Below are positions 8,272 to 27,736 of a stretch of DNA of 64,000 nt, in pieces. The notes under the pieces are model-generated. The model saw nothing but the letters and a program-made list of their open reading frames with translations. It searched no databases and had not been told where the DNA came from. The stretch comes from Herbaspirillum huttiense (GTDB lineage Bacteria; Pseudomonadota; Gammaproteobacteria; Burkholderiales; Burkholderiaceae_D), in contig NZ_CP037993.1 in assembly GCF_004367745.1 (NCBI RefSeq), positions 434,001 to 498,000 of the forward strand, written 5' to 3'. The stretch's first letter is position 1, and each line of letters opens with the position of its first letter. The translations under genes were made by a program, and so were the position numbers.

Positions 8272-9483
8272 TTAGTCGTTGTTTTCGTTATTCGGCTTCC
8301 AGGTGCATTCGTTTCCCCAGCCGGCCCAGCCAGCAGCGGGTTCGCCACGGCAGAACAACTCCACCTTCTGCAATTCGGGATACATGTCGTCGATGATCTG
8401 GTAGAGATCGACCGGCTTGCGACTGTGTTCGGCACGTGGAAACTTCAACACGGAGGAGGGGCGGGCACCGTAGGGCACTTCAGGAACCTGCCCCTTGATA
8501 CCGATCATCAGTACCTCATGCGCTTGGCGGAAGTACGCACCTTGCCCCATCACGTTCTTGTCCCAGACCGCACTGGTCTTGAAGGTAAAGCCCCATGCCG
8601 CCATAACTTTCAAGCCTTCGCACAGCAGTGAGGAAGAACACCACATGAACAGCACCGCGTCCTCGGTCGTAATGTCATGGATCGGCATGTCGCAGATATC
8701 CTCAACAGGCATGCAGGGATAGCCCACAGCAAATTCACCCATGTAATCCCAAGGGGGATCGGCATAGACCACACTGAACGTGCCCAGTGATGCTTCCAGC
8801 GGCTTATTGTTGGCACGCTTGGCCTCGATCTGCTGAATACGCTCCAGACGACGGGCTTCGAACTTGGCCTTGTTGATCGCCTTGCTGGCATCCTGAATCG
8901 CCTTGATGTCGTCGAAATTCAGTTGTGCCTGATCTTCCTTGGCCAGGTTGGCCAGCCTGGACGCATTGCTCAAGTCAATCTTCCCCGCTTCCACCGCTGC
9001 GATCAGTTCAGGACTTCCGTGAGTGAGCACCTTCTTGCCACGGGCAATGGAGTCGGTGGAGATATTCAGATCGGCAGCGAGCTGCTGCTGGGATACCGCC
9101 CCGGCGGTATGCTGGTTCGTTCCCATGCCGGTATTGCACAGACGTGCAGCGATCAATGCACGCTGATTGATATCCAGATGGCGGCGATGCAGATTGATGC
9201 TGACAACGGTTGCCTGCATTTCGGCATCGTTCGCTGCGGCCATTTCCTCAAAGCGCGGATCGATGCCAAGCTCGATGCAGGCACGCAGGCGATGACGACC
9301 ATCCACCACTTTGCCCTGGTAGCAGAGGATCGGCATCCTCAGACCGTATGCCGAAATATCGGCCTTGAGTTCGTTGAACTCGGTTTCGGACATTTCGGGG
9401 AACAGATGGGCCACCTCGTGGATTTCCAGTGACTGGGTTGTGGATGCTGCTTCTGGCTGGTTGTTTTCAAACACATGACTCAT
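8272..9483 (-). CDS. ParB-like nuclease domain / MT-A70 methyltransferase fusion
   Basis: About 403 residues. The N-terminal half (about 20-210) is ParB/Srx-like: LKADISAYGLRMPIL, VVDGRHRLRACIELG, and a helix-turn-helix with VSQQQLAADLNISTDSI. The C-terminal half is an MT-A70-type adenine-N6 methyltransferase with the catalytic DPPW (VVYADPPWDY) followed by VLFMWCSSSLL. These fusions are common in phages and integrative elements and methylate DNA adenine, probably to mark or protect element DNA. The ATG at 9483 is preferred because AGGAGAA lies just upstream; an upstream frame extension to 9516 has no such site. It heads the minus-strand operon that ends with the primase. Confidence 0.85.
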   Translation of the reverse strand: MSHVFENNQPEAASTTQSLEIHEVAHLFPEMSETEFNELKADISAYGLRMPILCYQGKVVDGRHRLRACIELGIDPRFEEMAAANDAEMQATVVSINLHRRHLDINQRALIAARLCNTGMGTNQHTAGAVSQQQLAADLNISTDSIARGKKVLTHGSPELIAAVEAGKIDLSNASRLANLAKEDQAQLNFDDIKAIQDASKAINKAKFEARRLERIQQIEAKRANNKPLEASLGTFSVVYADPPWDYMGEFAVGYPCMPVEDICDMPIHDITTEDAVLFMWCSSSLLCEGLKVMAAWGFTFKTSAVWDKNVMGQGAYFRQAHEVLMIGIKGQVPEVPYGARPSSVLKFPRAEHSRKPVDLYQIIDDMYPELQKVELFCRGEPAAGWAGWGNECTWKPNNENND

Positions 9484-9548
9484 TTTTCTTCTCCTATTAA
9501 AAACTCTTTGCTGCAATTTTTTCGGCCGGTTTACGAAGTTCGTCTGTA

Positions 9549-9732: not shown

Positions 9733-9759
9733 ATTGACACGGACCTGATGGAGAGAGCA

Positions 9760-10722
9760 GTGGCAGGACGACCGAAGAGACCGCCGATAGACAAGATGAA
9801 GACCCGGCTATGGCTGGCCGAACTGCTGCGGGTCACCGGCATGGAAAATCTGAACCAGTTGGGCGATCTGCTGGACGGCGTGGACATCAAGAAGATGCTG
9901 TACCGCTACGCGAATGGAGCCAACGTCGTCTCTGGAAAGATGCTGGCGGAAGTCGAGGCAAGGGTGAGGCAGAGCGGTTCTCGTCACACAGGAAGTGAGT
10001 CGTTTTTCTTGATCGGTCCGGGCAGTCCGACCGAAACGGTGGAATTTGCGCCGCTGTGGGATGCGCTGGATGGAACAATGGAAGATGTCTGGAACGTCAT
10101 GCTGACCTACGACCCGGACTTGGCCGTGCAGAAGTTCCTTGGTGTGCCGTTCAACCTACGCTGTGCCTTTCTGGTCGTGCAGGTGTTTGGCACGACCGAG
10201 CCGCCGCAGTACTGGAAGGAAGAGGAGATCAGTAATCGCGTAGCGGAAGCGTATGCCAGGGGGGAACTGGCGGTGGATACCGATCTGGTCACATTTGCCA
10301 TTGCGGCATGGCGCATGGCCCATTTCATCGGCCAGGACCAGCCCATGCTGGATTACATCCTGATCGGACTACTGGACAAGGCCATTCCTGAGCTGCTGGA
10401 CAGGCGCTTCACCATCGAGGTGGATAAAGGCGAACATCGGCATGGCATTACTGCCGATGTTCTGGACCACCTTGAAGCGCTGGCGGGGCAACATCTGAAA
10501 GAGGCTGGCATCGCTGTCAAGGACATGGACTACGCGGCCAATATGTATCCTGCAGTAGAAAGCCATCCCGTCCGGGGTGTCCAGGTAAAGTTCGAACAAC
10601 CTTTCGATCACAACTTTCAGTTTGAGCGTTTGAAGCGCCACAGTGTGGCAGAGTTTTTTGCACGGAAGCGAATGACGCAAGATCCTATTGTGACGGAGGG
10701 GGCCGCCCAAGCGGTAGCCTGA
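9760..10722 (+). CDS. Unknown 320-residue island protein
   Basis: I do not recognise this protein. It begins VAGRPKRPPIDKMKTRLWLAELL and is probably started at GTG 9760 because GGAG lies 6 bases upstream; an ATG at 9748 is in frame but without a ribosome binding site. The basic N-terminus followed by a short helical region (ENLNQLGDLLDGVDIKKMLYRY) could bind DNA. The rest is mixed alpha/beta without visible catalytic motifs. It diverges from the ParB/MT-A70 operon and shares its repeat-bearing intergenic region. A regulatory or replication role is inferred from position only. Confidence 0.6.
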   Translation: MAGRPKRPPIDKMKTRLWLAELLRVTGMENLNQLGDLLDGVDIKKMLYRYANGANVVSGKMLAEVEARVRQSGSRHTGSESFFLIGPGSPTETVEFAPLWDALDGTMEDVWNVMLTYDPDLAVQKFLGVPFNLRCAFLVVQVFGTTEPPQYWKEEEISNRVAEAYARGELAVDTDLVTFAIAAWRMAHFIGQDQPMLDYILIGLLDKAIPELLDRRFTIEVDKGEHRHGITADVLDHLEALAGQHLKEAGIAVKDMDYAANMYPAVESHPVRGVQVKFEQPFDHNFQFERLKRHSVAEFFARKRMTQDPIVTEGAAQAVA

Positions 10723-11188: not shown

Positions 11189-14100
11189 ATGTCGAATCCA
11201 TTCTTCGATCACCCAATTCTGAACTCCCCGTATGCCCGCCCTTCGCGGCACTGGGAGTTGGACGAATCGGGACAACCGACGCAGCAAATTCTTGAAACGC
11301 GTAGGCGTGCCGAGTTCATTACTCCAATCCCGAAGCCGAAGAAGCAAAAGAAGACGCCCAAGCAGGAAGGCTTCGTCTTTGATGAGGGCGAGGGTCTATC
11401 CACAAAAGCGCAGCAGTACGACACGACCTCGATCATCAACGAGGTGCGGAGTCACGTTGACTCGTGGCGTGCGCTTCCGAATCCGAGCCAATGGCAGGTC
11501 ACCCCCGAGACGGCACGGCTCTTGCAGCACTGGCGCCATCACGGGTTCAACGGCGTCCGGCCTTTCTTCTGTCAGGTCGAGGCTGTCGAAACGGCAATCT
11601 GGCTAACCGAGGTTGCGCCGAGCACCAAACACGGCAAGCGCATTCTCGATCACTTGGCGGCAGCCAACAAGGACGCCAACCCCCAGTTGATGCGGCTGGC
11701 GCTCAAGCTCGCCACTGGGGCGGGTAAAACGACCGTGATGGCAATGCTGATTGCCTGGCAGACGATCAATGCCGTTCGTCGTCCCGCCAGCAAGCAATTC
11801 ACGCGCGGCTTCTTGATCTGCGCGCCGGGCCTTACCATCAAGGACCGCCTGCGCGTACTTCAACCCAACGACCCTGATAGCTACTACAGGGAACGGGAAT
11901 TGGTGCCGAGCGACCTTCTGGACGATATGGGTCGTGCCAAGATCGTCATCACCAACTACCATGCCTTCAAACTGCGAGAGCGCATTGACATTTCCAAAGG
12001 CGGGCGGCAATTGCTCAAGGGTCGTACCGGCGAAGAAATCATCACCACCGAAACCGAAGGCCAGATGCTTCAGCGAGTCATGCCCGATCTGATGGGCATG
12101 AAAAACATCCTAGCCATCAATGACGAAGCCCACCACTGCTACCGCGAAAAGCCGTTGGAGATAGACGACGAGGAGCTGAAGGGCGACGAAAGGAAAGAGG
12201 CCGAAAAGAACAATGAAGCCGCCCGGTTGTGGATCTCAGGGCTTGAGGCGGTCAATCGAAAGCTCGGCGTGTCTCGTGTCATCGACCTCTCCGCCACACC
12301 GTTCTTCCTGCGTGGTTCGGGGTATGCAGAGGGCACTCTGTTTCCTTGGACGATGAGCGACTTCTCGCTAATGGACGCCATCGAGTGCGGCATCGTCAAG
12401 CTGCCGCGCGTTCCGGTGGCGGAAAACATTCCCGGCGACGAGCTGCCCGTTTTCCGCAACCTCTGGGAAAACATCCGCAAGGACATGCCCAAGAAAGGGC
12501 GCGGTTCAAATCAGGAACTTGACCCACTCAAGCTGCCGACCCGGTTACAAACCGCACTGCAAGCACTCTACGGCCACTACGAAAAAACTTTCAAACTCTG
12601 GCAGGAGGCCGGGATCAAGGTGCCGCCGTGCTTCATCGTAGTGTGCCAGAACACCGCGATCTCCAAGCTGGTCTATGACTTCATTTCCGGTTTCCACCGC
12701 AAGAACGATGGCGGCACCACCACCTTGGAAAACGGTCGCCTGCCATTGTTCCGCAACTTCGACGAAACCACCGGCAACCCCTTGCCACGTCCCAATACCC
12801 TGCTGATCGATAGTGAACAGCTCGAAGCCGGTGATGCGCTGGACGACAAGTTCCATGAAATGGCCGCCGATGAAATTGAGCGCTTCCGCCGCGAGATCGT
12901 CGAGCGCACCGGTGATGCCCGTGCGGGTGACAGCATCAGCGATCAGGAGTTGCTGCGGGAAGTCATGAACACTGTCGGGAAGGCAGGGCAACTCGGTGGC
13001 TCGATCCGTTGCGTGGTGTCGGTCTCAATGCTCACCGAAGGCTGGGACGCCAACACCGTTACCCACGTGCTCGGTATACGCGCCTTCGGTACTCAGCTCC
13101 TGTGTGAACAGGTAATCGGCCGCGCCCTGCGCCGCCAGTCCTATGAACTCAACGAGGAAGGACTGTTCAACGTAGAGTACGCTGACGTGTTCGGCATCCC
13201 CTTCGACTTCACTGCCAAGCCAGTTATTGGCCCCCCACAACCGCCACGCGAAACCGTACAGATCAAGGCGATTCGGCCTGAACGCGATGTGCTGGAAATA
13301 GTTTTTCCACGCGTCGACGGCTATCGCGTCGAATTACCGGAAGAACGCCTCGTGGCCAACTTCAACGAGGAATCGACGCTGACTTTGACTCCCGATCTCG
13401 TCGGGCCGTCTCAGACCCAGAACGCCGGAATCATCGGTCAGTCGGCCGACATGACTCTTCAACATTTGGGCGACGTTCGGTCGTCAACATTGTTATTTCA
13501 CCTTACCCAGCGCCTGCTCTATACCAAGTGGCGCGATCCCGGCGAGGAACCCAAGCTACATCTGTTCGGCCAGCTCAAGCGCATCACCAAGGAATGGCTC
13601 GACAATCATCTCGAATGTAAGGGAGGCACTTATCCCGCGCTGCTGATGTACCAGGAGTTAGCAGACATGGCGTGCAACAGGATTACCGCTGCCATTACTC
13701 GACAGTTCCTAGGCAATCGACCGATCAAGGCATTGCTCGACCCCTACAATCCCAGCGGTTCGACGCGCCATGTACGGTTCAACACCTCCAAACCCAGCCG
13801 CTGGGAAACAAGTTCCAAGCATTGTCACGTCAACTGGGTGGTGCTCGACAGCGATTGGGAGGCGGAATTCTGCCGGGTGGCCGAGGCACATCCCAAGGTG
13901 CGAGCCTATGTCAAAAACCACGGTCTCGGTTTCGAGGTACCTTATCGCTACGGGTCAGAAACGCGCAAATATCTGCCCGACTTCATCGTACTGATCGATG
14001 ATGGCAAGGGGGCAGACAACTTGCTTCGACTGGTCGTCGAAATCAAGGGTTATCGACGCGAGGACGCCAAGGAAAAGAAATCGACGATGGACACCTACTG

Positions 14101-14260
14101 GGTGCCAGGTGTGAATCACCTTGGCACCTACGGGCGTTGGGCGTTTGCCGAGTTCACCGATGTGTTCCAGATGCAAGACGATTTTGCCAAGAAGGTCGAA
14201 AGCGAATTCAACAAGATGATCGAGGCTGCGGCAGGCAAGACCGCCGCCCAGGAAGCATAA
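11189..14260 (+). CDS. Type III-like restriction helicase-endonuclease (Res)
   Basis: 1023 residues, the restriction subunit of the operon. It is a superfamily 2 helicase with Walker A ATGAGKTT (about residues 175-182), a DEAH box in AINDEAHHCY (about 311), and motifs V/VI in MLTEGWDANTVTHVLGIRAFGTQ cut into two blocks and VIGRALRR. Near the C-terminus a PD-(D/E)xK nuclease is visible: YLPDFIVLI (about 928) and VVEIKGY (about 951). This layout fits Res subunits of type III systems, and I recall the family name BPTD_3080 for close relatives. The methyltransferase gene follows after 2 bases. The start at 11189 has no strong ribosome binding site. Confidence 0.85.
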   Translation: MSNPFFDHPILNSPYARPSRHWELDESGQPTQQILETRRRAEFITPIPKPKKQKKTPKQEGFVFDEGEGLSTKAQQYDTTSIINEVRSHVDSWRALPNPSQWQVTPETARLLQHWRHHGFNGVRPFFCQVEAVETAIWLTEVAPSTKHGKRILDHLAAANKDANPQLMRLALKLATGAGKTTVMAMLIAWQTINAVRRPASKQFTRGFLICAPGLTIKDRLRVLQPNDPDSYYRERELVPSDLLDDMGRAKIVITNYHAFKLRERIDISKGGRQLLKGRTGEEIITTETEGQMLQRVMPDLMGMKNILAINDEAHHCYREKPLEIDDEELKGDERKEAEKNNEAARLWISGLEAVNRKLGVSRVIDLSATPFFLRGSGYAEGTLFPWTMSDFSLMDAIECGIVKLPRVPVAENIPGDELPVFRNLWENIRKDMPKKGRGSNQELDPLKLPTRLQTALQALYGHYEKTFKLWQEAGIKVPPCFIVVCQNTAISKLVYDFISGFHRKNDGGTTTLENGRLPLFRNFDETTGNPLPRPNTLLIDSEQLEAGDALDDKFHEMAADEIERFRREIVERTGDARAGDSISDQELLREVMNTVGKAGQLGGSIRCVVSVSMLTEGWDANTVTHVLGIRAFGTQLLCEQVIGRALRRQSYELNEEGLFNVEYADVFGIPFDFTAKPVIGPPQPPRETVQIKAIRPERDVLEIVFPRVDGYRVELPEERLVANFNEESTLTLTPDLVGPSQTQNAGIIGQSADMTLQHLGDVRSSTLLFHLTQRLLYTKWRDPGEEPKLHLFGQLKRITKEWLDNHLECKGGTYPALLMYQELADMACNRITAAITRQFLGNRPIKALLDPYNPSGSTRHVRFNTSKPSRWETSSKHCHVNWVVLDSDWEAEFCRVAEAHPKVRAYVKNHGLGFEVPYRYGSETRKYLPDFIVLIDDGKGADNLLRLVVEIKGYRREDAKEKKSTMDTYWVPGVNHLGTYGRWAFAEFTDVFQMQDDFAKKVESEFNKMIEAAAGKTAAQEA

Positions 14261-14262
14261 CT

Positions 14263-17064
14263 ATGGCCAAGCAACCAACCACGAACAAGAATGTCAGCGC
14301 AATTAAGCACGACGCCAAGCGCAAGAACATCCCCACCGCCGAATACCAGTCGGTGCTTGACGAAGTGCAGAAGAACCCCAAACAGGTGCGCTACCCGCGC
14401 AACACTGACCTTGACCCGCAACTGGTCTGGCGCGGCAAGGACGAGCAGGACTGGAGCGATCTCGTCGTCCATGCTCCGCCGCTCTACATTCAGGAAAAGG
14501 TCCACCCCAAGGCGCTGATAGACGATTTGCTGCGCGAATCGAAGGAGCGCGAGCACGAGCAGGGGCAGATTACTGCAGATCTTTTCGCCGACTTCAACGG
14601 TATCCCCAAGGACGCCGACAAGACCGAGTTCTACCAGCACGACCAAAATTGGACCAATCGCATGATCCTCGGCGATAGCCTTCAGGTCATGGCCAGCCTT
14701 GCCGAACGCGAGGGGCTACGCGGGAAAGTGCAGTGCATCTACTTCGATCCGCCCTATGGGATCAAATTCAACAGCAACTTCCAATGGTCAACCACCAGCC
14801 GCGATGTGAAGGACGGCAAAGCCGACCACATCACACGCGAGCCGGAGCAGGTCAAGGCGTTTCGCGATACCTGGCGAGACGGAATTCACTCCTACCTCAC
14901 TTACCTGCGTGATCGGTTGATAGTGGCGCGCGATCTGCTGACCGTGTCCGGTTCGATCTTCGTTCAGATTGGCGACGAGAACGTACACCGAGTAAGGGTG
15001 TTGTTGGATGAGGTATTTGGGGAAACTAACTTTGTTAGTCAGATTGCATTTCAGACAACAACGGGCCGTGCAAATGCTGCTCTCGCGGCGGCTTCGAATT
15101 ACCTGCTTTGGTTTGCCAAAGACTCCCGTGCGCTGAAGTTTCGCGCGCCGCTGTTGCCGAAGTCCAGCGGCGCATCTACTGAGCAGGTATACCGGATGGT
15201 CCGTAAGCCTGATGGTGATTCTCGGCGCTTAAATGCAGACGGCGTGGTGAAGGAAGGTGAGCGCATCTTCCGCGCCGACAACATCACTAGTTCCCGTCCA
15301 GCCGGAGATGGCGATGTGCGGTTTTTTGAGTACCAAGGGCAAGCGTATCCCTCCGGGAAAGGCACATTCAAGAGCGACGAACCTGGCCTGAAACGACTCG
15401 CTAAAGCTGATCGCATATGGAAGGCGAAAAACAGTATTCAATACGTTCGCTATCTTGACGACTTCGACGCTATACCGATCTCGAACGTTTGGACCGACAC
15501 CCAGACGGGTAACTTCACCGAAGACAAAGTGTATGTTGTCCAAACCGCGCAAAAGGTTGTCCAACGTTGCTTGCTTATGACTACTGACCCTGGTGATCTT
15601 GTGCTTGACCCTACCTGCGGCTCAGGCACCTCTGCCTATGTCGCCGAGCAATGGGGGCGCCGCTGGATCACCATGGACACTTCTCGCGTCGCACTGGCGC
15701 TAGCTCGCGCCCGCATCATGGGAGCGCGCTACCCGTTCTACCTGCTGGCTGATTCGTACGAAGGGCAACTCAAGGAAGCCGAAGTCACTCGTAGCGCACC
15801 CAGCACGCAGCCCGTGCACGGCAACATCCGCCACGGCTTTGTCTATGAGCGCGTGCCGCACGTCATGCTGAGTTCCATCGCCAACAACGCCGAGATCGAC
15901 GTGATCTGGGAAAAGTGGCAGGAAAAACTGGAGCCGTTGCGCGAGCAACTGAACGCAATGCTGAAGAAGACCAGGCAGGAATGGGAGATTCCCCGTGAAG
16001 CCGATGCGAAATGGCCGGACAAGGCGAAGCAGCTCCATGCCGATTGGTGGCGAGCGCGTATCGCGCGGCAAAAGGAGATCGATGCCTCCATCGCCGCTAA
16101 GGCGGAATTCGAGTACCTCTATGACAAGCCTTACGAGAACAAAAAAGCAGTCCGTGTGGCTGGTCCCTTCACCGTTGAGAGCCTGAGCCCACACCGCGTT
16201 CTAGGTGTTGATGAGGACGACGAGTTGATCGATACCCTCCGCGAGCCGGAAGCGCAATACGCAGCCAAGCAATCCTTCCCGCAGATGATTCTTGAGAACC
16301 TGAAGACGGCGGGCGTACAACAGGCGCACAAGGAGGACCGAATTATGTTCACATCGCTGGTCGCGTGGCCGGGGGAACTGGTTTGCGCCGAGGGCCGCTA
16401 TATCGAGGAAGGAAAAGTTGGTGCTGACGAGGCGGCGACTGCTGGAGTAGAAAAGCGCGCTGCCATTTTCATTGGCCCCGAATTTGGCACTGTGCAGCGC
16501 GCCGATCTGGTCGAAGCTGCGCGGGAGGCAGCTGATGCCGGTTTCGACGTGCTGATAGCCTGTGCCTTCAACTTCGAGGCGCACACCACGGAGTTTTCCA
16601 AGCTCGGCAAGCTGCCAGTGCTCAAAGCGCGCATGAATGCCGACCTGCACATGGCCGAAGACCTCAAGAACACCGGCAAGGGCAACCTGTTCGTAATCTT
16701 CGGCGAGCCGGATATTACGCTCCTGCATGAAGGTGACATGCTGCGCGTGACGGTGAATGGCGTCGATGTGTTCAAGCCACAGACTGGCGAAGTCGTCAGC
16801 GACGGTGCGGACGGTATTGCCTGTTGGTTCATCGACACCGACTACAACGAGGAGAGTTTTTTCGTCCGCCACGCTTATTTCCTTGGAGCGAACGATCCTT
16901 ACAATGCCCTCAAGACCTCCTTGAAGGCCGAGATCGACGCAGAGGCATGGGCAAGCCTGAACAGTGATACCTCGCGTCCGTTCAAGAAACCAAAATCCGG
17001 CCGGATTGCGGTAAAGGTGATCAATCACTTGGGGGATGAAGTGATGAAAGTGTTCAAGGTTTAG
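14263..17064 (+). CDS. Type III-like DNA adenine methyltransferase (Mod)
   Basis: 933 residues. DPPY (CIYFDPPYGIKF, about residue 161) precedes the AdoMet-binding motif LVLDPTCGSGT (about 449), the beta-class order typical of type III Mod and related N6-adenine enzymes. The N-terminal segment before the catalytic region and a long C-terminal extension of about 480 residues probably carry target recognition and subunit contacts. The ATG at 14263 has AGGAAG upstream and lies 2 bases after the Res stop; longer in-frame extensions only overlap Res. It should methylate the site cut by the partner enzyme. The recognition sequence cannot be read from the protein. Confidence 0.85.
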   Translation: MAKQPTTNKNVSAIKHDAKRKNIPTAEYQSVLDEVQKNPKQVRYPRNTDLDPQLVWRGKDEQDWSDLVVHAPPLYIQEKVHPKALIDDLLRESKEREHEQGQITADLFADFNGIPKDADKTEFYQHDQNWTNRMILGDSLQVMASLAEREGLRGKVQCIYFDPPYGIKFNSNFQWSTTSRDVKDGKADHITREPEQVKAFRDTWRDGIHSYLTYLRDRLIVARDLLTVSGSIFVQIGDENVHRVRVLLDEVFGETNFVSQIAFQTTTGRANAALAAASNYLLWFAKDSRALKFRAPLLPKSSGASTEQVYRMVRKPDGDSRRLNADGVVKEGERIFRADNITSSRPAGDGDVRFFEYQGQAYPSGKGTFKSDEPGLKRLAKADRIWKAKNSIQYVRYLDDFDAIPISNVWTDTQTGNFTEDKVYVVQTAQKVVQRCLLMTTDPGDLVLDPTCGSGTSAYVAEQWGRRWITMDTSRVALALARARIMGARYPFYLLADSYEGQLKEAEVTRSAPSTQPVHGNIRHGFVYERVPHVMLSSIANNAEIDVIWEKWQEKLEPLREQLNAMLKKTRQEWEIPREADAKWPDKAKQLHADWWRARIARQKEIDASIAAKAEFEYLYDKPYENKKAVRVAGPFTVESLSPHRVLGVDEDDELIDTLREPEAQYAAKQSFPQMILENLKTAGVQQAHKEDRIMFTSLVAWPGELVCAEGRYIEEGKVGADEAATAGVEKRAAIFIGPEFGTVQRADLVEAAREAADAGFDVLIACAFNFEAHTTEFSKLGKLPVLKARMNADLHMAEDLKNTGKGNLFVIFGEPDITLLHEGDMLRVTVNGVDVFKPQTGEVVSDGADGIACWFIDTDYNEESFFVRHAYFLGANDPYNALKTSLKAEIDAEAWASLNSDTSRPFKKPKSGRIAVKVINHLGDEVMKVFKV

Positions 17065-17080
17065 GTCAGGAAATTGACAG

Positions 17081-18859
17081 ATGATAATTACGCCAACTTC
17101 GCTGACCATCAATCAGCTTTTCGGCTCGAACAACGAGCAGTACGTCATCCCTACCTATCAGCGTCGGTACTCGTGGCATGACCGCCAGATTTGGGAGCTA
17201 ATAGACGACATCGGATTGATCGAAGGTAGTGATACCCATCTTCTGGGTAGCATCGTATGCCTTGCCGGTCACCATACCGCCGGATTGAACAAGCTCGAAC
17301 TGGTGGATGGTCAGCAGCGCCTGACGACTATCACGATCCTCCTTGAGTGCATTCGTCAACATCTCGACTCAATTGGAGAGAAGGATGAGGCGGCGGAGGT
17401 GGCACGCTTGCTTCAAGCAAAGCCTCTAGGTGGACAGCCGGTACGCAAGGTAGCGCTCGACTCCATCGACGCGGCGGAATTCGATCGTCTAGTTGCTGCT
17501 GACAGTCAGCAGGAATTTCAAAACGAAAGATTGGAGTGGGCTTTTGCTATTGTTCGTGCGTGGGTAGCAGAGCAATCTCTCGAATACTTGGGATCCTTTC
17601 TGTATCGGCTAAAGAACCAGGCGATCGTGATCCGTCTCGACGTCAGCGAAGCAAAGGATGCCTTCAAGCTCTTTGAAACGATTAACAACCGCGGTTTGAA
17701 GCTGAGTCCGACCGATATCATCAAAAACTTCCTGTTGGGTAATGCCGCTCGATTCGGTGACGCTGCCTTACAGGCGGCGCGAGCCAGTTGGACGCATTTG
17801 ATTCAGCATCTCGACGGTACTAACTCGGATGCGTTTTTCCGCTATTACCTGATGAGCTTGTGGAAGGTGCGCTTAACGGCAGCTGATGTGGTACCTAGCT
17901 TCAAGAAGGTGTTTATGGAGCAGGTCCTAGAGGCCAAGGAATTACCGGAGCGGCATCTTTATGCTGACTCAGAAGAGACAACCGAGGATGAGTCCGAGAA
18001 CGGAGACGAAAGTATCGTTGGCGAAGTAGATGCAACCAATATCGGGCAAGTCAATTTCACGGACTTTCTGGAAAGACTGGTGTCGAGCGCCAAGATTTAC
18101 GGTGAACTGGTGCTTGTAAAGACCACTGACGCCGAAACAAACAGGTATCTGCGCAACTTGAAGATGATCAAGGCCGTCCAAACGTATGGTTTCTTGATGC
18201 ATCTTCAGGTAGGCCGCTGCACCAAGAAACATTTTAGGGAGGTGCTGAAACTCACCGAAAGTTTCGTGTTGCGGCGGCATGTTTGCCGCGAACGATCAAA
18301 CGAAACCGAGGCACTTTTTGCCAGATTGTGCTCGGTTAGTCCGTCAGACCCCGTTCAGAAGACGAGAGAGGCTTATCGAGAGCTGTGTCCTGCCGACGAG
18401 AAGTTCCGTGAGGAATTCGCGACGACAAGCTTCACTTCCAACGTGATTGACCGTGCGCGCTACTGCTTAGAACAGATTGAATTGTCGAAGCATGGTGACT
18501 ATGAAGAGTTGCAGGTCCTTGGTGCCGAAGACGTGCATGTGGAACACATTATTCCGCAGAAGATCAAGACCAAGAGGGTGAGGGAGGACCTTGGAGATTG
18601 GGTGGAATATCTTGGCGACAAGGCCGAGTCACGCCATCTTAAGTATGTATCTCGAATCGGCAATCTGACCCTGTTTGCGGGTGCGCTGAATATCGGCGCG
18701 TCAAACAACCCGTTCCACAAGAAGCGGCAGGCCTACAAGGAATCAGGTATCAAGCTGACACAGGACTTGGTGAAGAAATCGCAGTTCAAATTCAAGGACG
18801 TCGATCAACGCTCAAGGGATCTTGCCGAGATTGCCCTCGGAATCTGGCCGATGCCCTGA
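17081..18859 (+). CDS. GmrSD-like DUF262/DUF1524 nuclease
   Basis: 592 residues. The N-terminal DUF262 (ParB-like, nucleotide-dependent) domain shows YVIPTYQRRYSW and the DGQQR motif (about residue 75). The C-terminal DUF1524 domain has an HNH-type core: VEHIIPQ (about 488), GNLTLFAG, and ASNNPFHKKR. Single-chain GmrSD proteins are type IV restriction enzymes against modified DNA; homologues also accompany type I and III systems. Here it lies 16 bases after the methyltransferase in the same operon, so it may cover phages whose modified DNA escapes the Res/Mod pair. That division of labour is inference. Confidence 0.85.
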   Translation: MIITPTSLTINQLFGSNNEQYVIPTYQRRYSWHDRQIWELIDDIGLIEGSDTHLLGSIVCLAGHHTAGLNKLELVDGQQRLTTITILLECIRQHLDSIGEKDEAAEVARLLQAKPLGGQPVRKVALDSIDAAEFDRLVAADSQQEFQNERLEWAFAIVRAWVAEQSLEYLGSFLYRLKNQAIVIRLDVSEAKDAFKLFETINNRGLKLSPTDIIKNFLLGNAARFGDAALQAARASWTHLIQHLDGTNSDAFFRYYLMSLWKVRLTAADVVPSFKKVFMEQVLEAKELPERHLYADSEETTEDESENGDESIVGEVDATNIGQVNFTDFLERLVSSAKIYGELVLVKTTDAETNRYLRNLKMIKAVQTYGFLMHLQVGRCTKKHFREVLKLTESFVLRRHVCRERSNETEALFARLCSVSPSDPVQKTREAYRELCPADEKFREEFATTSFTSNVIDRARYCLEQIELSKHGDYEELQVLGAEDVHVEHIIPQKIKTKRVREDLGDWVEYLGDKAESRHLKYVSRIGNLTLFAGALNIGASNNPFHKKRQAYKESGIKLTQDLVKKSQFKFKDVDQRSRDLAEIALGIWPMP

Positions 18860-18872
18860 TTGGGAGAGTCTT

Positions 18873-20978
18873 ATGGAATTCCGCATTGCTGATACTTTCA
18901 CCGATAGTCTTGCTCGGCTGACTGGCGACGAACAGAAGCTTGTTAAAACGACAGTGTTCGACTTGCAGTTGAATCCTGCTAGCCGCGGCATGAGTTTCCA
19001 CAAGCTGGACCGCGCCAAAGACAAGAATTTCTGGTCGGTTCGCGTTGGAAGTGATATTCGCCTGATTGTTCATCGCAGCGAATCGAGCCTGCTGCTTTGT
19101 TACGTTGACCATCACGACAAGGCCTACCAATGGGCCGAGCGTCGTAAGCTTGAGACTCATCCAAAGACCGGCGCGGCGCAACTGATCGAAATCCGCGAAA
19201 CGGTTCAGGAAGTGGTCGTACCAGTCTATGTCCAGAGCGAGTCTACGCTGTCGACAAGCATCCCGAAACCAGCATCTGTGGCAAAGCAGTTATTTCAAGG
19301 CATGGCTGATGACGACCTGCTGAGCTATGGTGTTCCACCAGAGTGGCTGCCCGATGTGAAACAAGCCACCGAGGCTACCTTGCTCGTTCTTGCGGATCAT
19401 TTGCCTGCTGAGGCTGCAGAAGCACTTCTTGAACTGGCAACAGGCGGCAAGCCTCGTGTTGCGACGCCATCGACCGCAAATCCATTCGACCACCCCGACG
19501 CGCAACGCCGGTTCCGGGTGATGAGCAACGTCGAGGAATTGCAGCGTGCGCTTGATTATCCGTGGGAGAAATGGACGGTTTTTCTTCACCCCGAGCAGCG
19601 CCAGTGGGTGGAGCGAGATTACAGCGGTCCGGCGCGCGTGTCTGGTTCGGCTGGCACAGGTAAGACCATTGTTGCCTTGCACCGCGCTGCCCACTTGGCG
19701 CGCCAGTATCCCGATGCGCGCGTATTGCTCACCACCTTTTCCGACACGTTAGCCAATGCTTTGCAATCGAAGCTGAATCGGCTGCTGACCCACGAGCCAC
19801 GCCTTGCCGAGCGTGTCGACGTGTATTCCCTCGAAGCCATCGGGCTGCGATTGCACAAGACTCAGGCCGGTCCAGCGAAGCTGGCGTCCCGTAAGGACAT
19901 TCGGCAGTTGGTGGGTAACGCTGCTACAGCGGTACCGGGACATAAATTTGGACACCACTTTTTGCTGGCTGAATGGGAACAAGTAGTCGACGCGTGGCAA
20001 CTTGATCATTGGGAGGCCTATCGCGACGTTGTACGCCTCGGCCGTAAGACCCGATTGCCAGAAGCGCAGCGGGCAGTATTGTGGGACATCTTTGAGCGTG
20101 TTCGATCGAGCTTGCGTGAAAAAGGTTTGGTCACGACCTCCGGATTATTCACGGCCTTGGCGAGTGCCCTGAGGACAAGGAGCAATCCTATCTTCGATTT
20201 CGTTGTCGTCGATGAAGCGCAGGACATCGGAATCGCACATTTGCGATTCCTGGTCACGCTGGGCGGCGGTGAGGGCGCAATTCGTCCGAACGCGCTGTTT
20301 TTTGCCGGCGACCTTGGGCAGCGCATCTTCCAGCAGCCGTTTTCATGGAAGTCACTGGGCGTCGACGTGCGCGGACGGTCCCGTACGTTGCGTGTCAATT
20401 ATCGAACATCACACCAAATTCGCAGCCAGGCAGACCGGCTGCTTGGCCCGGCAGTGACCGACGTAGATGGCAATGCCGAAGATCGTAGCGATACCGTATC
20501 GGTCTTCAACGGCCCGCCGCCACGAATTCAAATTCTTGACGATGCAGGAGAAGAAAGCGCCGTCGTCGGGCGGTGGCTCGCCGAATGTGGAAACGTCGGC
20601 ATCTTGCCGCATGAGATTGGCATATTTGTTCGGTCTGAAGCGCAAATCGGCCGGGCCGAGGAAGCTGTTCGTCTCGCCGACTTGCCCTACCAAATTCTGG
20701 ATAACGACGTGGCCACAGAGCTTGACCATGTTTCGGTCAGTACAATGCATCTGGCGAAGGGGCTGGAGTTCCGCGCAGTGGCTGTAATGGCCTGCGACGA
20801 CGAGATTATTCCCTTGCAAGAGCGGATTGAAACAGTCGGCGATGATGGTGATTTGCAGGAGGTTTATGACACCGAGCGGCAATTGCTCTATGTAGCGTGT
20901 ACGCGCGCCCGGGACCACCTACTGGTTACCGGCACAATTCCATCATCCGAGTTTTTGGAAGATCTGGTAGGCAAGTAG
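18873..20978 (+). CDS. RelE/ParE-like domain fused to UvrD-type helicase
   Basis: About 701 residues. The first 95 residues look like a RelE/ParE toxin fold (MEFRIADTFTDSL, then KNFWSVRVGSDIRLIVH). The rest is a superfamily 1 3'-5' helicase: Walker A SGSAGTGKT (about 260), Walker B VVVDEAQD (about 444), GDLGQRIFQQPFSW, VNYRTSHQIR, and motifs V/VI in VSTMHLAKGLEF and LLYVACTRARDHL. The ATG at 18873 has GGGAGAG upstream and lies 13 bases after the GmrSD-like stop; an earlier in-frame start only overlaps that gene. This is the last gene of the defence operon. Whether the toxin-like domain cuts RNA or only binds is unknown; the classical catalytic residues of RelE are hard to place here. Confidence 0.8.
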   Translation: MEFRIADTFTDSLARLTGDEQKLVKTTVFDLQLNPASRGMSFHKLDRAKDKNFWSVRVGSDIRLIVHRSESSLLLCYVDHHDKAYQWAERRKLETHPKTGAAQLIEIRETVQEVVVPVYVQSESTLSTSIPKPASVAKQLFQGMADDDLLSYGVPPEWLPDVKQATEATLLVLADHLPAEAAEALLELATGGKPRVATPSTANPFDHPDAQRRFRVMSNVEELQRALDYPWEKWTVFLHPEQRQWVERDYSGPARVSGSAGTGKTIVALHRAAHLARQYPDARVLLTTFSDTLANALQSKLNRLLTHEPRLAERVDVYSLEAIGLRLHKTQAGPAKLASRKDIRQLVGNAATAVPGHKFGHHFLLAEWEQVVDAWQLDHWEAYRDVVRLGRKTRLPEAQRAVLWDIFERVRSSLREKGLVTTSGLFTALASALRTRSNPIFDFVVVDEAQDIGIAHLRFLVTLGGGEGAIRPNALFFAGDLGQRIFQQPFSWKSLGVDVRGRSRTLRVNYRTSHQIRSQADRLLGPAVTDVDGNAEDRSDTVSVFNGPPPRIQILDDAGEESAVVGRWLAECGNVGILPHEIGIFVRSEAQIGRAEEAVRLADLPYQILDNDVATELDHVSVSTMHLAKGLEFRAVAVMACDDEIIPLQERIETVGDDGDLQEVYDTERQLLYVACTRARDHLLVTGTIPSSEFLEDLVGK

Positions 20979-21509
20979 GGGAGGGACGAATTTAGAGTTT
21001 CGACACAACCAATGGCGGAATCTGCCCCATTGTTCACCTTACACATTGCCTGCGCCAACGTCTGGAATGTCCGACGGGCTGCCTATGAGCGGTCGTATCG
21101 TGCGATCGTTCAACGCGCTTACCTGCCGCTGGAGGTAAATTTCGCATAAAGCTAGGCAATTTGCTTCACGGAACCCGGCCAAGAACCTTTTTAAAGCCTC
21201 CCGCTCAAGCGGTATCCAGACAGTAAAAATCCTTTTAACATTTTCGGATGGACGACCCGGACGCTAGTCCACCGTGTGAATGACTGTCAAGGTTGCCGCA
21301 TTCCCCCGTGCCAAGCTGATTTATTTTCCGAGTGTTCAATTTTCGACTTGCTATTCGTTTTTGGTTTGGTAAAACAATCCTAAGACGAAAGACAAGCAAG
21401 GTTAACCCATTGCCCGTATGAATCCTCGGCGCAATGGTTAATCTGGGGCGTCGCCCCAGTCCCCTGTTGTACAGACGTCTCCCATAACAATAAAAACATG
21501 GAGATGCAT
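20979..21509. other. 531-bp region holding a candidate oriT
   Basis: No gene is recognised. Immediately before mobC it contains the dyads at 21402-21459 described separately. Confidence 0.5.
21402..21459. other. Candidate origin of transfer (oriT)
   Basis: Two adjacent dyads: TTAACCCATTGC (21402-21413) with GCAATGGTTAA (21431-21441), one base unpaired; and CTGGGGC-GTC-GCCCCAG (21443-21459). The sequence AATCCTC lies in the first loop. Such nested inverted repeats next to mobC-mobA are where relaxases nick. The nick site is not identified. Confidence 0.45.
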
Positions 21510-21908
21510 ATGGAATCACGTATCAAATTCAAACCTGGCCAGGCCGGTGCAGATGGCAACCACCATCTGCGCAACAAGCGCATAGAGATTCGCGTCAGCA
21601 CGCAGGAATACAGCAAGCTGGAGCAACGGGCACAGGACTTGGGCTACCACAATCTGGCTCAGTATCTGAGGGAGGCGGGCTTGACCCGTGAGCAACTCGT
21701 CTCGCCAACTACCCGTCAGAAAGAAAAATCAGAATGGTTGTATGCGATCAATCGCATCGGCAACAACATCAACCAGATCGCTCGTCATTTAAACATGGGG
21801 CAAGATCCTGATGACGACATGCTGCTCATGCTGGCGCAGATTCAGGACATGGCCAACAGTGCGTTCAAGAAAGCATTGAAAGGAAACGATGACTGGGAGG
21901 GAGTATGA
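21510..21908 (+). CDS. mobC: MobC relaxosome accessory protein
   Basis: About 132 residues. The N-terminal ribbon-helix-helix-like part (KRIEIRVSTQEYSKLEQRA) is followed by LGYHNLAQYLREAGL and the MobC signature WLYAINRIGNNINQIARHLN. MobC proteins bind oriT and help open the DNA for the relaxase. The ATG at 21510 is preferred because GGAG lies 6 bases upstream; ATGs at 21498 and 21504 are in frame. Its stop overlaps the relaxase start by 4 bases (ATGA). Confidence 0.85.
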   Translation: MESRIKFKPGQAGADGNHHLRNKRIEIRVSTQEYSKLEQRAQDLGYHNLAQYLREAGLTREQLVSPTTRQKEKSEWLYAINRIGNNINQIARHLNMGQDPDDDMLLMLAQIQDMANSAFKKALKGNDDWEGV

Positions 21909-23290
21909 TCGTGCGCATCTTCCGCTCTGGTATCTCCAGTGGTGAATCACCCGTCAATTACCTATTGGGCGATGTCGACCCTGCTGGCCAGTCACGTTCC
22001 GTTGCACCTGAAGTGCTGGCAGGCGATCCGCAGACCACCATTGATGTGATCAACAGCATCCAGCGCAAACACAAATACATCTCAGGTTGCCTGAGCTTCC
22101 GAGACTCGGAAAAGCCGAGCCGAGAGAAACTGCTGGAAGTCATCGATGATTTCAAGGCGACTTTTTGTCCAGGTTTGACATCGAATCATTTCAACAGTCT
22201 GTTTGTTCTGCACCAGGATAAGGGCAATACCGAAGTCCATTTCGTCATTCCCACGCAGGAGCTGACCTCTGGCAGAAGGATGAATATTCATCCGCCCGGC
22301 AAAGCCAATCTGGAATTCTTCGAAGCCTATACACGTGTGACGAATCACCGGATGGGATATGCGCAAATCGTCCCGAATCCACTCAAGATGGCCTTCTCGG
22401 ATTTTGAACGAAAGACTCCGTTGGGCAGAAGGGAACAATCGGATAAACGCTGGGTGCACAGGAATCTGGTCAAAGCCGTTGTCGAAGGAACGATCCAGAA
22501 CCGTGACGATTTGTGTCGCTATCTGGATGAAGAGTTCGGCATCACTGTCACTCGACAGGGCGACGATTATCTTTCCGTGAAATTTCCGGGGGGCCAGAAA
22601 GCCAAGCGATTGCGTGGCCCTCTCTACAGCAGCGATGCCGATTACCAATCCCTGCTGGAACAATCAGAGATAGCCAAGCAGCCGAAGTATCTGACTAAGA
22701 AAGAATTCGAATCCGAGAAAACTTGTCTGAGTCAATTTATTCAAGAACGCAGGCAATTCAACGAGCAGACCTATCTGGCTGCCAGAAAAATCCGTCGACT
22801 GGTCAGATCACACGCCTCATTGAAACCCGTAAACCCTGCGGCCAATACAACAATAACTACAAGGAGCCCAGCCATGAAAAACACCATCCATCTTCCCGTC
22901 ATCAAAAGCATGATTTTGAGGGCGCTGGCGATCGCTAGAGAAGAAGTCCATGTGCCATTTCAACCAGTCCGTATCGTCCAGCCGAAAACCCGCAAAGCGA
23001 CGATGCACAACATCAATGCGCTACGAGAAAAGGCCTTCGGCCAAACCTCACCCGAAATTCAGACAGGCTTGGCGGATTTGATGATGGCCATTGCAGAAGT
23101 GGAAGTCAGCTTGGGCGAAACCATAAGCAAATTAAGCGATGCCGAAACACCAGAGAAGGCGGAAAAACTGAGACAGCGAATCATCCATCTACAACTGGAG
23201 CTGGACAAACTGAACGCCCAAAAAGTGATGTTACCTGTGCAGGGTCTGAACGACGAGTTGAACCAAATTTGGCGCAAAAAGAGTGGCTAA
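21905..23290 (+). CDS. mobA: MobA-type relaxase (MOBP)
   Basis: 461 residues. The N-terminal relaxase domain shows INSIQRKHKYISGCLSF, then HFNSLFVLHQDKG and the histidine-containing strand TEVHFVIPTQELTSGRRMNI, as in MOBP relaxases. After the nuclease domain there is a helical region (about 230-290) and a C-terminal coiled-coil-like part (SLGETISKLSDAETPEKAEK). It nicks oriT and pilots the strand during transfer. The element has no type IV secretion genes, so it must use another element's machinery. It overlaps mobC by 4 bases. Classical ColE1-type subfamily placement would need alignment. Confidence 0.85.
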   Translation: MIVRIFRSGISSGESPVNYLLGDVDPAGQSRSVAPEVLAGDPQTTIDVINSIQRKHKYISGCLSFRDSEKPSREKLLEVIDDFKATFCPGLTSNHFNSLFVLHQDKGNTEVHFVIPTQELTSGRRMNIHPPGKANLEFFEAYTRVTNHRMGYAQIVPNPLKMAFSDFERKTPLGRREQSDKRWVHRNLVKAVVEGTIQNRDDLCRYLDEEFGITVTRQGDDYLSVKFPGGQKAKRLRGPLYSSDADYQSLLEQSEIAKQPKYLTKKEFESEKTCLSQFIQERRQFNEQTYLAARKIRRLVRSHASLKPVNPAANTTITTRSPAMKNTIHLPVIKSMILRALAIAREEVHVPFQPVRIVQPKTRKATMHNINALREKAFGQTSPEIQTGLADLMMAIAEVEVSLGETISKLSDAETPEKAEKLRQRIIHLQLELDKLNAQKVMLPVQGLNDELNQIWRKKSG

Positions 23291-24559: not shown

Positions 24560-25738
24560 ATGTACGACTCCCCGCACCAATTTACCCCTCTGCTGCCTCA
24601 AACGAGTCTGGATGCTCTTCAGGAGAAGGCCAGCAAGGTGGTGCAAGCATCCATTGGATTGGCCTCTACGGGGCATGCCTCAGCTCGTCGGGTGGTAAGA
24701 GAACTTGTGCGATCAATCAACTCTTATTACAGCAATCGTATCGAAGGGCAAGGCACTCATCCCGCGAACATTGAAAGGGCGTTGAACCAAGACTTTTCCG
24801 AAAAGCCCGATGTGGCTCAACTTCAACGTATCGCATTAGCTCATATAGATGCTGAAAGGGAGTTGGAGCAAGCCGTAGAGGCTGGGCGCTCGGCCATTTT
24901 TTCGGATTTCCTCTTGGATGCTCACAAAGCTCTTTACTCCCGCTTATCCGAAGCAGACCGAACTACTAAAGATGGGCATATTGTTGAGCCGGGTCAACTC
25001 AGAACGCAGCTCGTTGAGGTTGGTCGACATATCCCGCCAACCCCGGAGTCGGTTCCCCGATTTTTAGCAATGATGGATGAGGTTTATGGTAGAGAAAAAG
25101 GATGGGAAAGGCTTCTAATCGCAATCGCTTGTCTGCACCATCGGGCTGCATGGGTGCATCCTTTTTTTGACGGAAATGGTCGCTCTACCAGGCTTCAAAG
25201 CCATTGTGCTTTGTGGCCGCTTTCTGGTGGGCTGTGGTCAACCAGCAGAGGATTAGCGCGAGCTCAGCAAGACTACTATGCAAAGCTGATCAACGCCGAC
25301 GCCCCGCGCCGAGGTGATCTTGATGGTAGGGGGAATTTAACGGCCGCAGGCCTAGCTGAGTGGGTAGACTTCTTCTTGGGTATATGTGAAGACCAAGTTG
25401 CGTTCATGGGGCGGATGTTAGACCTTGACGGTATGAAGCGGCGAATTGAAGCGCTAGTGCTGTTTAGAGGAGTGGCTGATAAAGATATACGGCCTGAGGC
25501 CATTCTTCCTCTTTACCATCTATTCGCTGCCGGGCCACTCACTCGTGGAGAATTCATACAACTAACTGGCTTGGGAGAGCGAACGGGAAGATCGTTATTA
25601 TCCAAGTTACTAGCGGTAAAGCTCATTACCAGTGATAGTCCTCGCGGGCCAGTAACGTTTGGGCTTCCCCTGGATTCGTTACATTTTTTATTGCCCGAGC
25701 TTTATCCTGAAGCAAACACTAGAAATGAGCATCACTAA
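24560..25738 (+). CDS. Fic-family protein (AMPylase type)
   Basis: 392 residues. The Fic active-site motif is intact: HPFFDGNGRSTR (about residue 201), with the catalytic histidine first. Upstream, SNRIEGQG (about residue 59) matches the inhibitory (S/T)xxxE(G/N) helix of class II Fic proteins, so the enzyme should be self-inhibited. A C-terminal winged-helix-like part (LTRGEFIQLTGLGERTGRSLL) suggests DNA binding and autoregulation, consistent with the 12-bp repeats before and across the start. It diverges from the AbiEi-like gene. Fic enzymes usually transfer AMP to target proteins; the target here is unknown. Confidence 0.85.
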   Translation: MYDSPHQFTPLLPQTSLDALQEKASKVVQASIGLASTGHASARRVVRELVRSINSYYSNRIEGQGTHPANIERALNQDFSEKPDVAQLQRIALAHIDAERELEQAVEAGRSAIFSDFLLDAHKALYSRLSEADRTTKDGHIVEPGQLRTQLVEVGRHIPPTPESVPRFLAMMDEVYGREKGWERLLIAIACLHHRAAWVHPFFDGNGRSTRLQSHCALWPLSGGLWSTSRGLARAQQDYYAKLINADAPRRGDLDGRGNLTAAGLAEWVDFFLGICEDQVAFMGRMLDLDGMKRRIEALVLFRGVADKDIRPEAILPLYHLFAAGPLTRGEFIQLTGLGERTGRSLLSKLLAVKLITSDSPRGPVTFGLPLDSLHFLLPELYPEANTRNEHH

Positions 25739-27659: not shown

Positions 27660-27682
27660 TGGTCGGGGTGAGAGGATTCGAA
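27660..27682. repeat. Right attachment site (att repeat)
   Basis: The 23-bp copy lies within the 3' end of the intact tRNA-Pro gene and includes its encoded CCA; it is identical to 1736-1758. Confidence 0.9.
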
Positions 27683-27736
27683 CCTCCGGCCTCTACGTCC
27701 CGAACGTAGCGCTCTACCAGGCTAAGCTACACCCCG
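27660..27736 (-). tRNA. tRNA-Pro (anticodon CGG)
   Basis: On the minus strand, the acceptor stem CGGGGTG / CACCCCG, anticodon arm CTACG-TTCGGGA-CGTAG (anticodon CGG), T-loop TTCGAAT and encoded ACCA end fold as a standard 77-base tRNA. It is the integration target of the island. The island now separates it from the terminator at 1681-1712 that probably served it. Confidence 0.95.

Follow-up and report, generated by a model that had tools for sequence, protein, structure and literature searches.

A probable type III-like restriction-modification operon of Herbaspirillum huttiense that combines Res, Mod and an ArmD-like RelE-UvrD protein with two slots for exchangeable cargo

Introduction

Type III restriction-modification (R-M) systems recognise an asymmetric site, methylate one strand and cut at a fixed distance when sites lie head to head; their canonical gene order is mod-res. 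Here we describe an operon related to them in a stretch of 64,000 nucleotides from Herbaspirillum huttiense (contig NZ_CP037993.1 of assembly GCF_004367745.1, positions 434,001 to 498,000 of the forward strand), hereafter the window, whose own numbering is used throughout. Between 11189 and 20978, four genes encode a Res, a Mod, a GmrSD-like DUF262/DUF1524 protein and a protein in which a RelE-like domain is followed by a UvrD helicase (RelE-UvrD). As in type III systems of the EcoP15I kind, a Res that joins an SF2 helicase to a PD-(D/E)xK nuclease and a beta-class Mod are encoded by adjacent genes of one operon. Unlike in those systems, Res precedes Mod, a third conserved gene and two cargo slots are present, and Mod is longer (933 amino acids (aa) versus 644 in the EcoP15I chain).

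The last protein has a described counterpart in ARMADA type II, where the YprA-like helicase is named ArmC and the RelE-UvrD protein ArmD (PMC12458937). In the sections of that paper used here, ARMADA II depends on ArmD and on the lysine of its Walker A motif, and its action is reported to be non-abortive; section 6 gives no RelE-domain mutant among those reported (PMC12458937). Both ARMADA II and the window operon end in a UvrD-family helicase with an N-terminal RelE-like domain and pair ArmD with a methyltransferase and a helicase, whereas the window methyltransferase is a type III Mod and not PglX-like, and the two kinds of ArmD fall into separate groups of a tree that carries a long-branch warning.

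GmrSD-like type IV enzymes, as the consulted part of PMC4619093 presents them, resemble the third protein of the window, which has both GmrSD domains above their cutoffs, DGQQR and an HNH-type C-terminus; the window protein differs in being a single polypeptide and exchangeable cargo of a type III-like operon. Unrelated defence genes between the core genes of an immune operon are known already: in the accessible parts of the sources, DarTG2 is embedded in a type I RM locus (PMC12255303), the auxiliary effectors of BREX include GmrSD (PMC12839542), and R-M operons with toxins had been pointed out before (PMC3710099). The family of the window operon shares this trait with such loci and differs from what those parts describe in having two recurrent slots, remnants of core genes, and near-identical frames with different cargo. 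The ptuXYZ operon also brings together a DUF262 protein and a RelE-superfamily protein, but its PtuX is without DUF1524, its toxin is fused to a PIN-like domain and its third gene encodes a PtuA-like ATPase (PMC11980606). The main text of that paper mentions neither UvrD nor a helicase, and as described there ptuXYZ is a different arrangement. In contrast to embedded defences as such, no Res-Mod-RelE-UvrD operon was found described in the literature covered, which did not extend to supplements; the preprint of Payne et al. 2024 may contain parts of it.

Results

A recurrent unit of Res, Mod and RelE-UvrD

Comparison with relatives suggests, probably though with some reserve, that the locus is a type III-like R-M operon whose conserved unit is Res, Mod and an ArmD-like RelE-UvrD protein, and which offers two slots to exchangeable cargo. 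In the window, all on the plus strand, the core genes are Res at 11189-14260 (1023 aa), Mod at 14263-17064 (933 aa) and RelE-UvrD at 18873-20978 (701 aa from its ATG).

With RelE-UvrD as the bait, we surveyed a collection holding one genome for each of 84,980 species and retained the best 80 of at least 549 candidate stretches encoding relatives, 60-86% identical to the bait. Mod stands upstream of RelE-UvrD on the same strand in 74 of the 80 loci, in some of them only as its last codons at a contig edge, and in the remaining six the contig ends 87-1530 bases upstream of RelE-UvrD. Both Res and Mod are visible in 52 loci, and all 52 keep the order Res, Mod, RelE-UvrD on one strand. The hosts, according to the record titles, include Pseudomonadota, Acidobacteriota, Chloroflexota, Nitrospirota, Planctomycetota, Verrucomicrobiota and Gemmatimonadota. 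Outside the operon, almost every neighbour is different: 92 upstream open reading frames (ORFs) from 32 loci form 92 clusters and 288 downstream ORFs from 70 loci form 285, and no recurrent extra gene beyond Res or ArmD was found among ORFs of at least 80 aa within 4 kb, a tiling that includes spurious ORFs.

The histories of the three proteins are also correlated. Among 38 sequences (the window and the 37 loci with all three core proteins full-length), protein distances are correlated at 0.669 for Res-ArmD, 0.538 for Mod-ArmD and 0.442 for Res-Mod, and none of 2000 permutations reached any of these values, although the statistic ignores host phylogeny, which tells against it. In four loci with an empty slot 2 (L053, L072, L084, L090), the stop codon of Mod and the start codon of RelE-UvrD share one base, which allows translational coupling. 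Plasmids of Pseudomonas, Gemmobacter, Shinella, Rhizobium and Sphingomonas carry three-gene operons without DUF262; the plasmid searches listed 40 to 60 of the matching records, and one listed all 54. Within 369 genomes of the host's class, searched at E<=1e-60 for Mod, 1e-30 for RelE-UvrD and 1e-40 for Res, a full or near-full close RelE-UvrD is present in eight (in pieces in G269), all eight with a close Res and Mod.

Constant order, unrelated flanks and correlated distances together indicate that the fixed unit is Res-Mod-RelE-UvrD; at the level of sequence, these three genes are one recurrent conserved unit. The original prediction, made from the letters of the window, had seen in the four genes one system and not a chance cluster. 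Chance is ruled out by the presence of a co-directional Mod ahead of RelE-UvrD in 74 of 80 loci, the unrelated outer flanks and the sharp borders of similarity described below. The idea of one system stands for Res, Mod and RelE-UvrD, with their constant order, correlated histories and sharp borders, and falls for the DUF262 gene.

Core proteins of the window operon

The four co-directional genes are separated by gaps of 2, 16 and 13 bases, exactly as first given, and the names then assigned to them agree with Pfam, NCBIfam and PADLOC, the RelE part by way of its predicted fold. Res scores above the Pfam cutoff for ResIII and matches NCBIfam NF046055, "BPTD_3080 family restriction endonuclease", with 1394 bits (cutoff 800); a sequence search of the PDB returned no relative of it at E<=0.01. 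Mod is recognised by the Pfam N6_N4 MTase model and by the PADLOC type III MTase model (1421 bits), its best PDB matches are the type III Mod 6k0w (1.3e-17) and the EcoP15I Mod 4zcf (2.8e-14), and it carries DPPY ahead of DPTCGSGT. Searched against 60 host relatives, Mod had a full-length copy in none and weak or partial methyltransferase matches in 40. The last protein contains a UvrD domain by Pfam.

Walker A, DEAH and PD...ExK are intact in Res, and so are the UvrD motifs in the last gene. In the alignments of the same 38 sequences, the UvrD motifs are conserved, and both Walker A lysines, the DE and H of the Res DEAH box, PD, ExK and the DPPY of Mod are invariant; motif positions adjoining them are partly variable. 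Mod residues 251-400 stand apart, with an identity of 0.25-0.42. The corresponding hypervariable block (15023-15532, plus strand), at which DNA similarity also breaks, is presumed to be the target-recognition domain.

Two slots with changing contents

The gap between Res and Mod (slot 1; 14261-14262, empty in the window) and that between Mod and RelE-UvrD (slot 2; 17065-18872, occupied by the DUF262 gene) were measured from exact gene ends at the stop codons, and similarity borders agree with the limits of slot 2. Among relatives, 25 of 52 loci have more than 200 bp in slot 1 and 56 of 74 in slot 2, and neither slot passes this length in 12 of 52; a slot of this length is not equivalent to a recognised gene. 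A co-directional ORF of at least 90 aa is found in slot 1 of 24 loci and in slot 2 of 54. The 169 insert ORFs of this size, 152 of them in operon orientation, fall into 102 clusters, 27 of which occur in more than one locus; 17 of 186 insert ORFs, shorter than 90 aa, were left out of the clustering. Annotation covered 87 of the 102 cluster representatives, the other 15 being represented by minus-strand ORFs that were left out. Pfam was run on 20 of the 87 singly and on 67 in bulk, and PADLOC in bulk (25 commonest families), with ten representatives also run singly at E<=1e-10.

The recognised cargo is diverse. It comprises IetA/IetS (an AAA ATPase with a subtilase), SIR2 with HerA, PD-Lambda-5, a DRT reverse transcriptase (UG14), Fic, the YhcG nuclease, ABC-3C components, OLD-like ATPases, AriA-like proteins, a TIR protein, HepT, AbiJ, PIN, D12 methyltransferases and GmrSD-like proteins. 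The last are found in at least five of 80 loci (L070, L085, L099, L073 and L081; clusters 11 and 24), counted from cluster representatives and tblastn matches. Two further clusters, 1 and 2, recur in slot 2 with 10 and 8 members (e.g. L061 8151-9029 and L069 9394-9993). The representatives that were scanned have no hit in Pfam at E<=0.001 or in PADLOC at 1e-10, and we regard both families as candidate unknown defence genes.

The DUF262 gene of the window (17081-18859, plus strand; 592 aa) is a GmrSD-like nuclease gene by its domains, with GmrSD_N at 123.2 bits (cutoff 33.2), GmrSD_C at 82.9 (cutoff 23) and PADLOC HEC-06 at 265 bits. The protein has DGQQR at residue 76, EHIIPQ at 488, and GNLTL, which we take to be the named GmrSD motifs, and its C-terminus is of the HNH type. 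A close homologue between Mod and RelE-UvrD was found in only one of the 80 loci (L081, 56% identical), with a weak one in L073 (26%). Among the matches listed, its nearest plasmid relatives, 58% and 56% identical, lie on two Rhizobium plasmids (L030, L031), where Res, Mod and RelE-UvrD are all missing within about 9 kb of the homologue. In the class sample, a single other genome, G116, has a homologue at E<=1e-40 (40% identical, near a contig end), and G116 is absent from the hit lists of Res, Mod and RelE-UvrD.

From these comparisons, the DUF262 gene is exchangeable cargo outside the conserved unit. The constant spacing, which had been read as a sign of one system, is a weak argument because other slot cargo is tightly packed too. 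It is plausible, though unproven, that in the window allele the DUF262 nuclease attacks modified DNA and so complements Res/Mod.

Traces of cargo exchange

When the window is compared with its relatives, DNA similarity breaks off where Mod ends (17054-17060) and picks up again with the RelE-UvrD start codon, at 18873 in L035, L036 and L038 and at 18872 in L042. A second interruption falls on the Mod recognition block, from 15023-15048 to 15532-15564 in L036, L038 and L042; the breaks of L038 and L042 lie within 32 bases of the hypervariable block and those of L036 at the block itself. In L036, the outer limits of similarity to the window are 11184 and the RelE-UvrD stop, 20978. Across the survey, 2241 of 2453 matching pairs have the start of their similarity no more than 15 bases from the ArmD ATG, and 2134 of 2234 have its end no farther than that from the Mod stop; these are blastn pairs at 1e-10, not independent of one another, from which pairs with a common slot-2 cargo cluster were left out.

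Among the 37 full-length loci, the nearest relative with a filled slot has a cargo cluster in common in two of 16 cases for slot 1 and two of 25 for slot 2. In L087 and L092, the RelE-UvrD proteins are 96% identical and the DNA remains similar for 577 bases beyond the gene, whereas slot 1, measured from the ends of the matches, is 52 bases in one case and 1.2 kb in the other, the recognition block differs as well, and the cargo of slot 2 is PD-Lambda-5 in one locus but a reverse transcriptase in its partner.

Five of the 80 loci (L061, L068, L069, L081, L100) have a truncated RelE-UvrD start or Mod end inside slot 2, and L153 is one further such locus outside the survey set (L151 is the same locus as L069). 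In L081 the order is Mod, DUF262, a short ORF made of a RelE-UvrD start and a Mod end, a second cargo set and RelE-UvrD; apparently, a window-like allele has become joined to a different one. The truncated gene ends look like recombination scars, recombination itself being inferred.

The RelE-fold domain

The N-terminus of RelE-UvrD is confirmed, at the level of a structural model, to adopt a RelE fold (about residues 1-90; 18873-19142, plus strand). AlphaFold2 modelled residues 1-110 with a predicted local distance difference test (pLDDT) of 90.2, and Foldseek matched the model to YoeB, RelE and YafQ in the PDB with a probability of 1.00 (E 3.6e-05 to YoeB); Z reached 10.8, with YafQ, over 85 residues. 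Among the matched structures are two ribosome complexes, one of RelE itself (4v7j) and one of the RelE-bearing effector Cami1 (8phj). The model of the full-length protein (pLDDT 69, predicted template modelling score 0.43) was set aside, and no conclusion was drawn from it. The RelE part had no match at E<=0.001 in the Pfam scan of the full-length protein, and a profile search of the domain against the PDB returned no relative at E<=1; the Pfam HigB-like toxin model is matched by 57 of 60 family members at E<=1, at best with 4.2e-06.

In blocks of 50 residues, identity is 0.80-0.82 in the RelE domain and 0.81 in the Walker A block, versus 0.67 for the whole protein. None of the ten diverse proteins in an alignment (A1) that includes ARMADA-type and Thermus sequences deviates at Ser55, Arg63, His81, Asp82, Tyr85 or Trp87. 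Because the domain is among the best-conserved parts and these six residues are kept in ten proteins, it is probably important.

Relation to ARMADA

The RelE-UvrD protein of the window is 33% identical to the ARMADA-type homologue of an E. coli plasmid. In the class sample, distant RelE-UvrD proteins (32-36%) occur at seven places, in six of which the gene directly follows a relative of the long DEAD/DEAH helicase gene of the E. coli IncY plasmid, an arrangement that we take, by analogy, to be ARMADA type II. Plasmids of Thermus and Allomeiothermus (L027, L028) have an ARMADA-like arrangement, in which the gene of a distant RelE-UvrD comes directly after a long DEAD/DEAH helicase gene and a DNA methyltransferase gene lies further upstream. 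We built a tree of 57 RelE-UvrD proteins (40 survey ArmDs, every second of 79, the window and 16 others), rooted at the midpoint only and accompanied by a warning of the tree tool that long branches meet. Six ARMADA rows and the G179 protein form one fully supported group, and the restriction-type rows group with the Thermus, Allomeiothermus and Qipengyuania proteins, that of Qipengyuania being nested inside.

No ArmC was found anywhere in the window by tblastn at 1e-3 with a partial E. coli plasmid query and a Thermus query. A partial Allomeiothermus methyltransferase, used as a check for ArmB, had no match in the window; ArmA was not searched for. Membership of ARMADA was considered and rejected, ArmD being present and ArmC absent, with ArmA outside the search. 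The operon is not ARMADA, since an ArmC-like helicase is missing from the window; as judged from sequence, it uses an ArmD-like subunit and is separate from ARMADA.

Genomic setting

A 23-bp exact direct repeat (1736-1758 and 27660-27682), whose right copy is the 3' end of a tRNA-Pro gene (27660-27736, minus strand), and an integrase gene at 25898-27565 mark out a 25.9-kb integrated element with the operon on it. Next to the operon, on its downstream side, 21498-23290 encodes a NikA/MobC-like protein and an MbeA-like relaxase, and the element looks mobilizable from these genes. The same element holds a Fic family protein at 24560-25738 (Fic is also slot cargo in relatives) and, at 8272-9516 on the minus strand, a weak ParB-like N-terminal match joined to an MT-A70 methyltransferase domain. 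Upstream of the operon and on its strand lies an ORF of 324 aa (9748-10722), for which Pfam, PADLOC and NCBIfam gave no match at E<=0.001.

Discussion

Our results support the notion that Res, Mod and an ArmD-like protein travel together while other defence genes come and go between them. Several observations weigh against this notion, or limit it. The survey is biased toward close ArmDs because the best 80 of at least 549 relatives were retained. On the Tistrella mobilis plasmid NC_017958.1 (745248-753318), Mod comes before Res and RelE-UvrD converges on them from the opposite strand. On contig 2 of G307, RelE-UvrD is inverted and 31 kb away from Res/Mod (the two sites being about 2.812 Mb and 2.843 Mb), perhaps a rearranged operon; in G364, it lies on a different contig. 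A close Res and a partial Mod, separated by about 38 kb, are found on two Methylibium plasmids, for which the matches listed include no RelE-UvrD. A third context for a RelE-UvrD of the restriction-type clade is seen on a Qipengyuania citrea plasmid (L025, 5787-17757), where it is flanked on one side by a RecB-like nuclease gene with a small ORF and on the other by a DUF4011 gene.

Moreover, close Res/Mod occur in 14 class genomes, six of which have no RelE-UvrD; five of these six have a contig end no more than about 4 kb away or are represented by fragments only. The sixth, G259, has Res/Mod with no RelE-UvrD in the 9.2 kb downstream. Close Res is seen only as fragments in G261, G211 and G210, and RelE-UvrD only as fragments in G145 (at a contig end, with no Res/Mod match) and in G210 (with the Res fragment). 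For 12 distant Mods of the class (37-43%), RelE-UvrD is absent from the fetched stretches, some of them limited by contig ends. Plasmid Mods at 45-53% (cyanobacteria, Chlorohelix, Methylomagnum, Rhodococcus) have no counterpart among the listed RelE-UvrD matches (40 and 60 of 85), and two of this range (L032, L034) have no RelE-UvrD nearby. As the more distant Res/Mod, that of L033 among them, are without ArmD, the latter is no general subunit but an addition made in one clade. On the protein side, the type III endonuclease domain PF19778 scores 23.2 bits in Res, 0.2 bits short of its cutoff of 23.4, and the 110-aa N-terminal piece of RelE-UvrD reaches the Pfam HigB-like toxin model with E 0.00095 and 20 bits, below the curated cutoff of 27. 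Catalysis by the modelled RelE fold is putative only, and RNA cutting is unproven.

If Res, Mod and the ArmD-like protein do work together, Mod would mark self DNA through its rapidly replaced recognition domain (residues 251-400) and hand unmarked sites to Res, which would translocate and cut. ArmD, driven by its UvrD motor, might then join Res or follow it on invader DNA that has been cut or unwound, and its RelE-fold domain may add an RNA-directed or nucleic-acid-binding step. Co-transcribed cargo would serve as a second layer, which in the window would be the cleavage of modified DNA invisible to Res/Mod, and recombination at the conserved Mod and ArmD ends might exchange the cassettes. 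A bolder version, which tempts us although our doubts are slightly the stronger, would see here a new restriction class: a type III-like complex with an obligatory RelE-UvrD subunit that links it to ARMADA, in an operon that acts as a docking frame into which defence systems are swapped by recombination at the Mod and ArmD ends.

Other explanations have to be weighed against the three-gene unit. It is rather unlikely, although it is the rival that we take most seriously, that a plain type III Res/Mod is accompanied by a separate back-up in which the helicase senses failed restriction or DNA ends and the RelE domain arrests translation. PrrC is described as such a back-up device for some type I systems. 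The modelled RelE fold with its ribosome-bound matches 4v7j and 8phj, and the conservation of the domain above that of the whole protein, speak in its favour. However, ArmD stays at the end of the unit while the cargo varies, and no co-directional ORF of at least 60 aa that might encode an antitoxin lies between the end of RelE-UvrD and 21498. Furthermore, cells with ARMADA II, which needs the homologue, stay viable and metabolically undisturbed, although lysis at the highest multiplicities counts on the other side, as far as the consulted sections of PMC12458937 go. Because the ARMADA result is non-abortive, a pure suicide role is less likely, and the back-up killing first proposed for the helicase is disfavoured by this analogy.

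That the neighbours form a defence island without joint function, held together by selection for horizontal transfer, strikes us as improbable. Such an island would fit the location of the window operon on a mobilizable element, the mixture of unrelated defence systems in the cargo and the exceptions to the order in Tistrella and G307, but it would hardly predict that all of the 52 loci have Res, Mod and ArmD in one order and orientation amid differing flanks and cargo, nor the translational overlap of Mod and ArmD in four loci. Least probable, and very unlikely, is an integrated system of four genes, with a joint evolution of Res/Mod, the DUF262 nuclease and RelE-UvrD. It would lead one to expect the tight co-directional packing seen in the window, the recurrence of GmrSD-like cargo and the order Mod-DUF262-ArmD' in L081. 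Against it, a close DUF262 homologue is found in one of 80 loci, the homologues of G116 and Rhizobium live apart from the other three genes, and similarity to all relatives except L081 breaks at both edges of the DUF262 gene. The guanine-cytosine (GC) content of this gene, 0.515, also departs from the 0.563-0.572 of the other three, though its third-position GC (0.611 versus 0.599-0.708) is not distinct. A single four-gene system was rejected on the survey, the independent homologues and the similarity breaks, and these comparisons leave the four-gene reading largely refuted.

To conclude, our study tells the fixed genes, Res, Mod and RelE-UvrD, apart from the exchangeable ones, and so shows which deletions would be informative. 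As IetAS, SIR2-HerA, PD-Lambda-5 and reverse transcriptases sit in the slots, slot contents in new genomes are good candidates for defence systems. The RelE-UvrD helicase is tied to two different restriction-like machines, which makes the role of its RelE domain testable by comparison, and the remnants in slot 2 provide a testable model of defence-island shuffling. If the operon is indeed a docking frame, a single operon would gain a changing second-line immunity.

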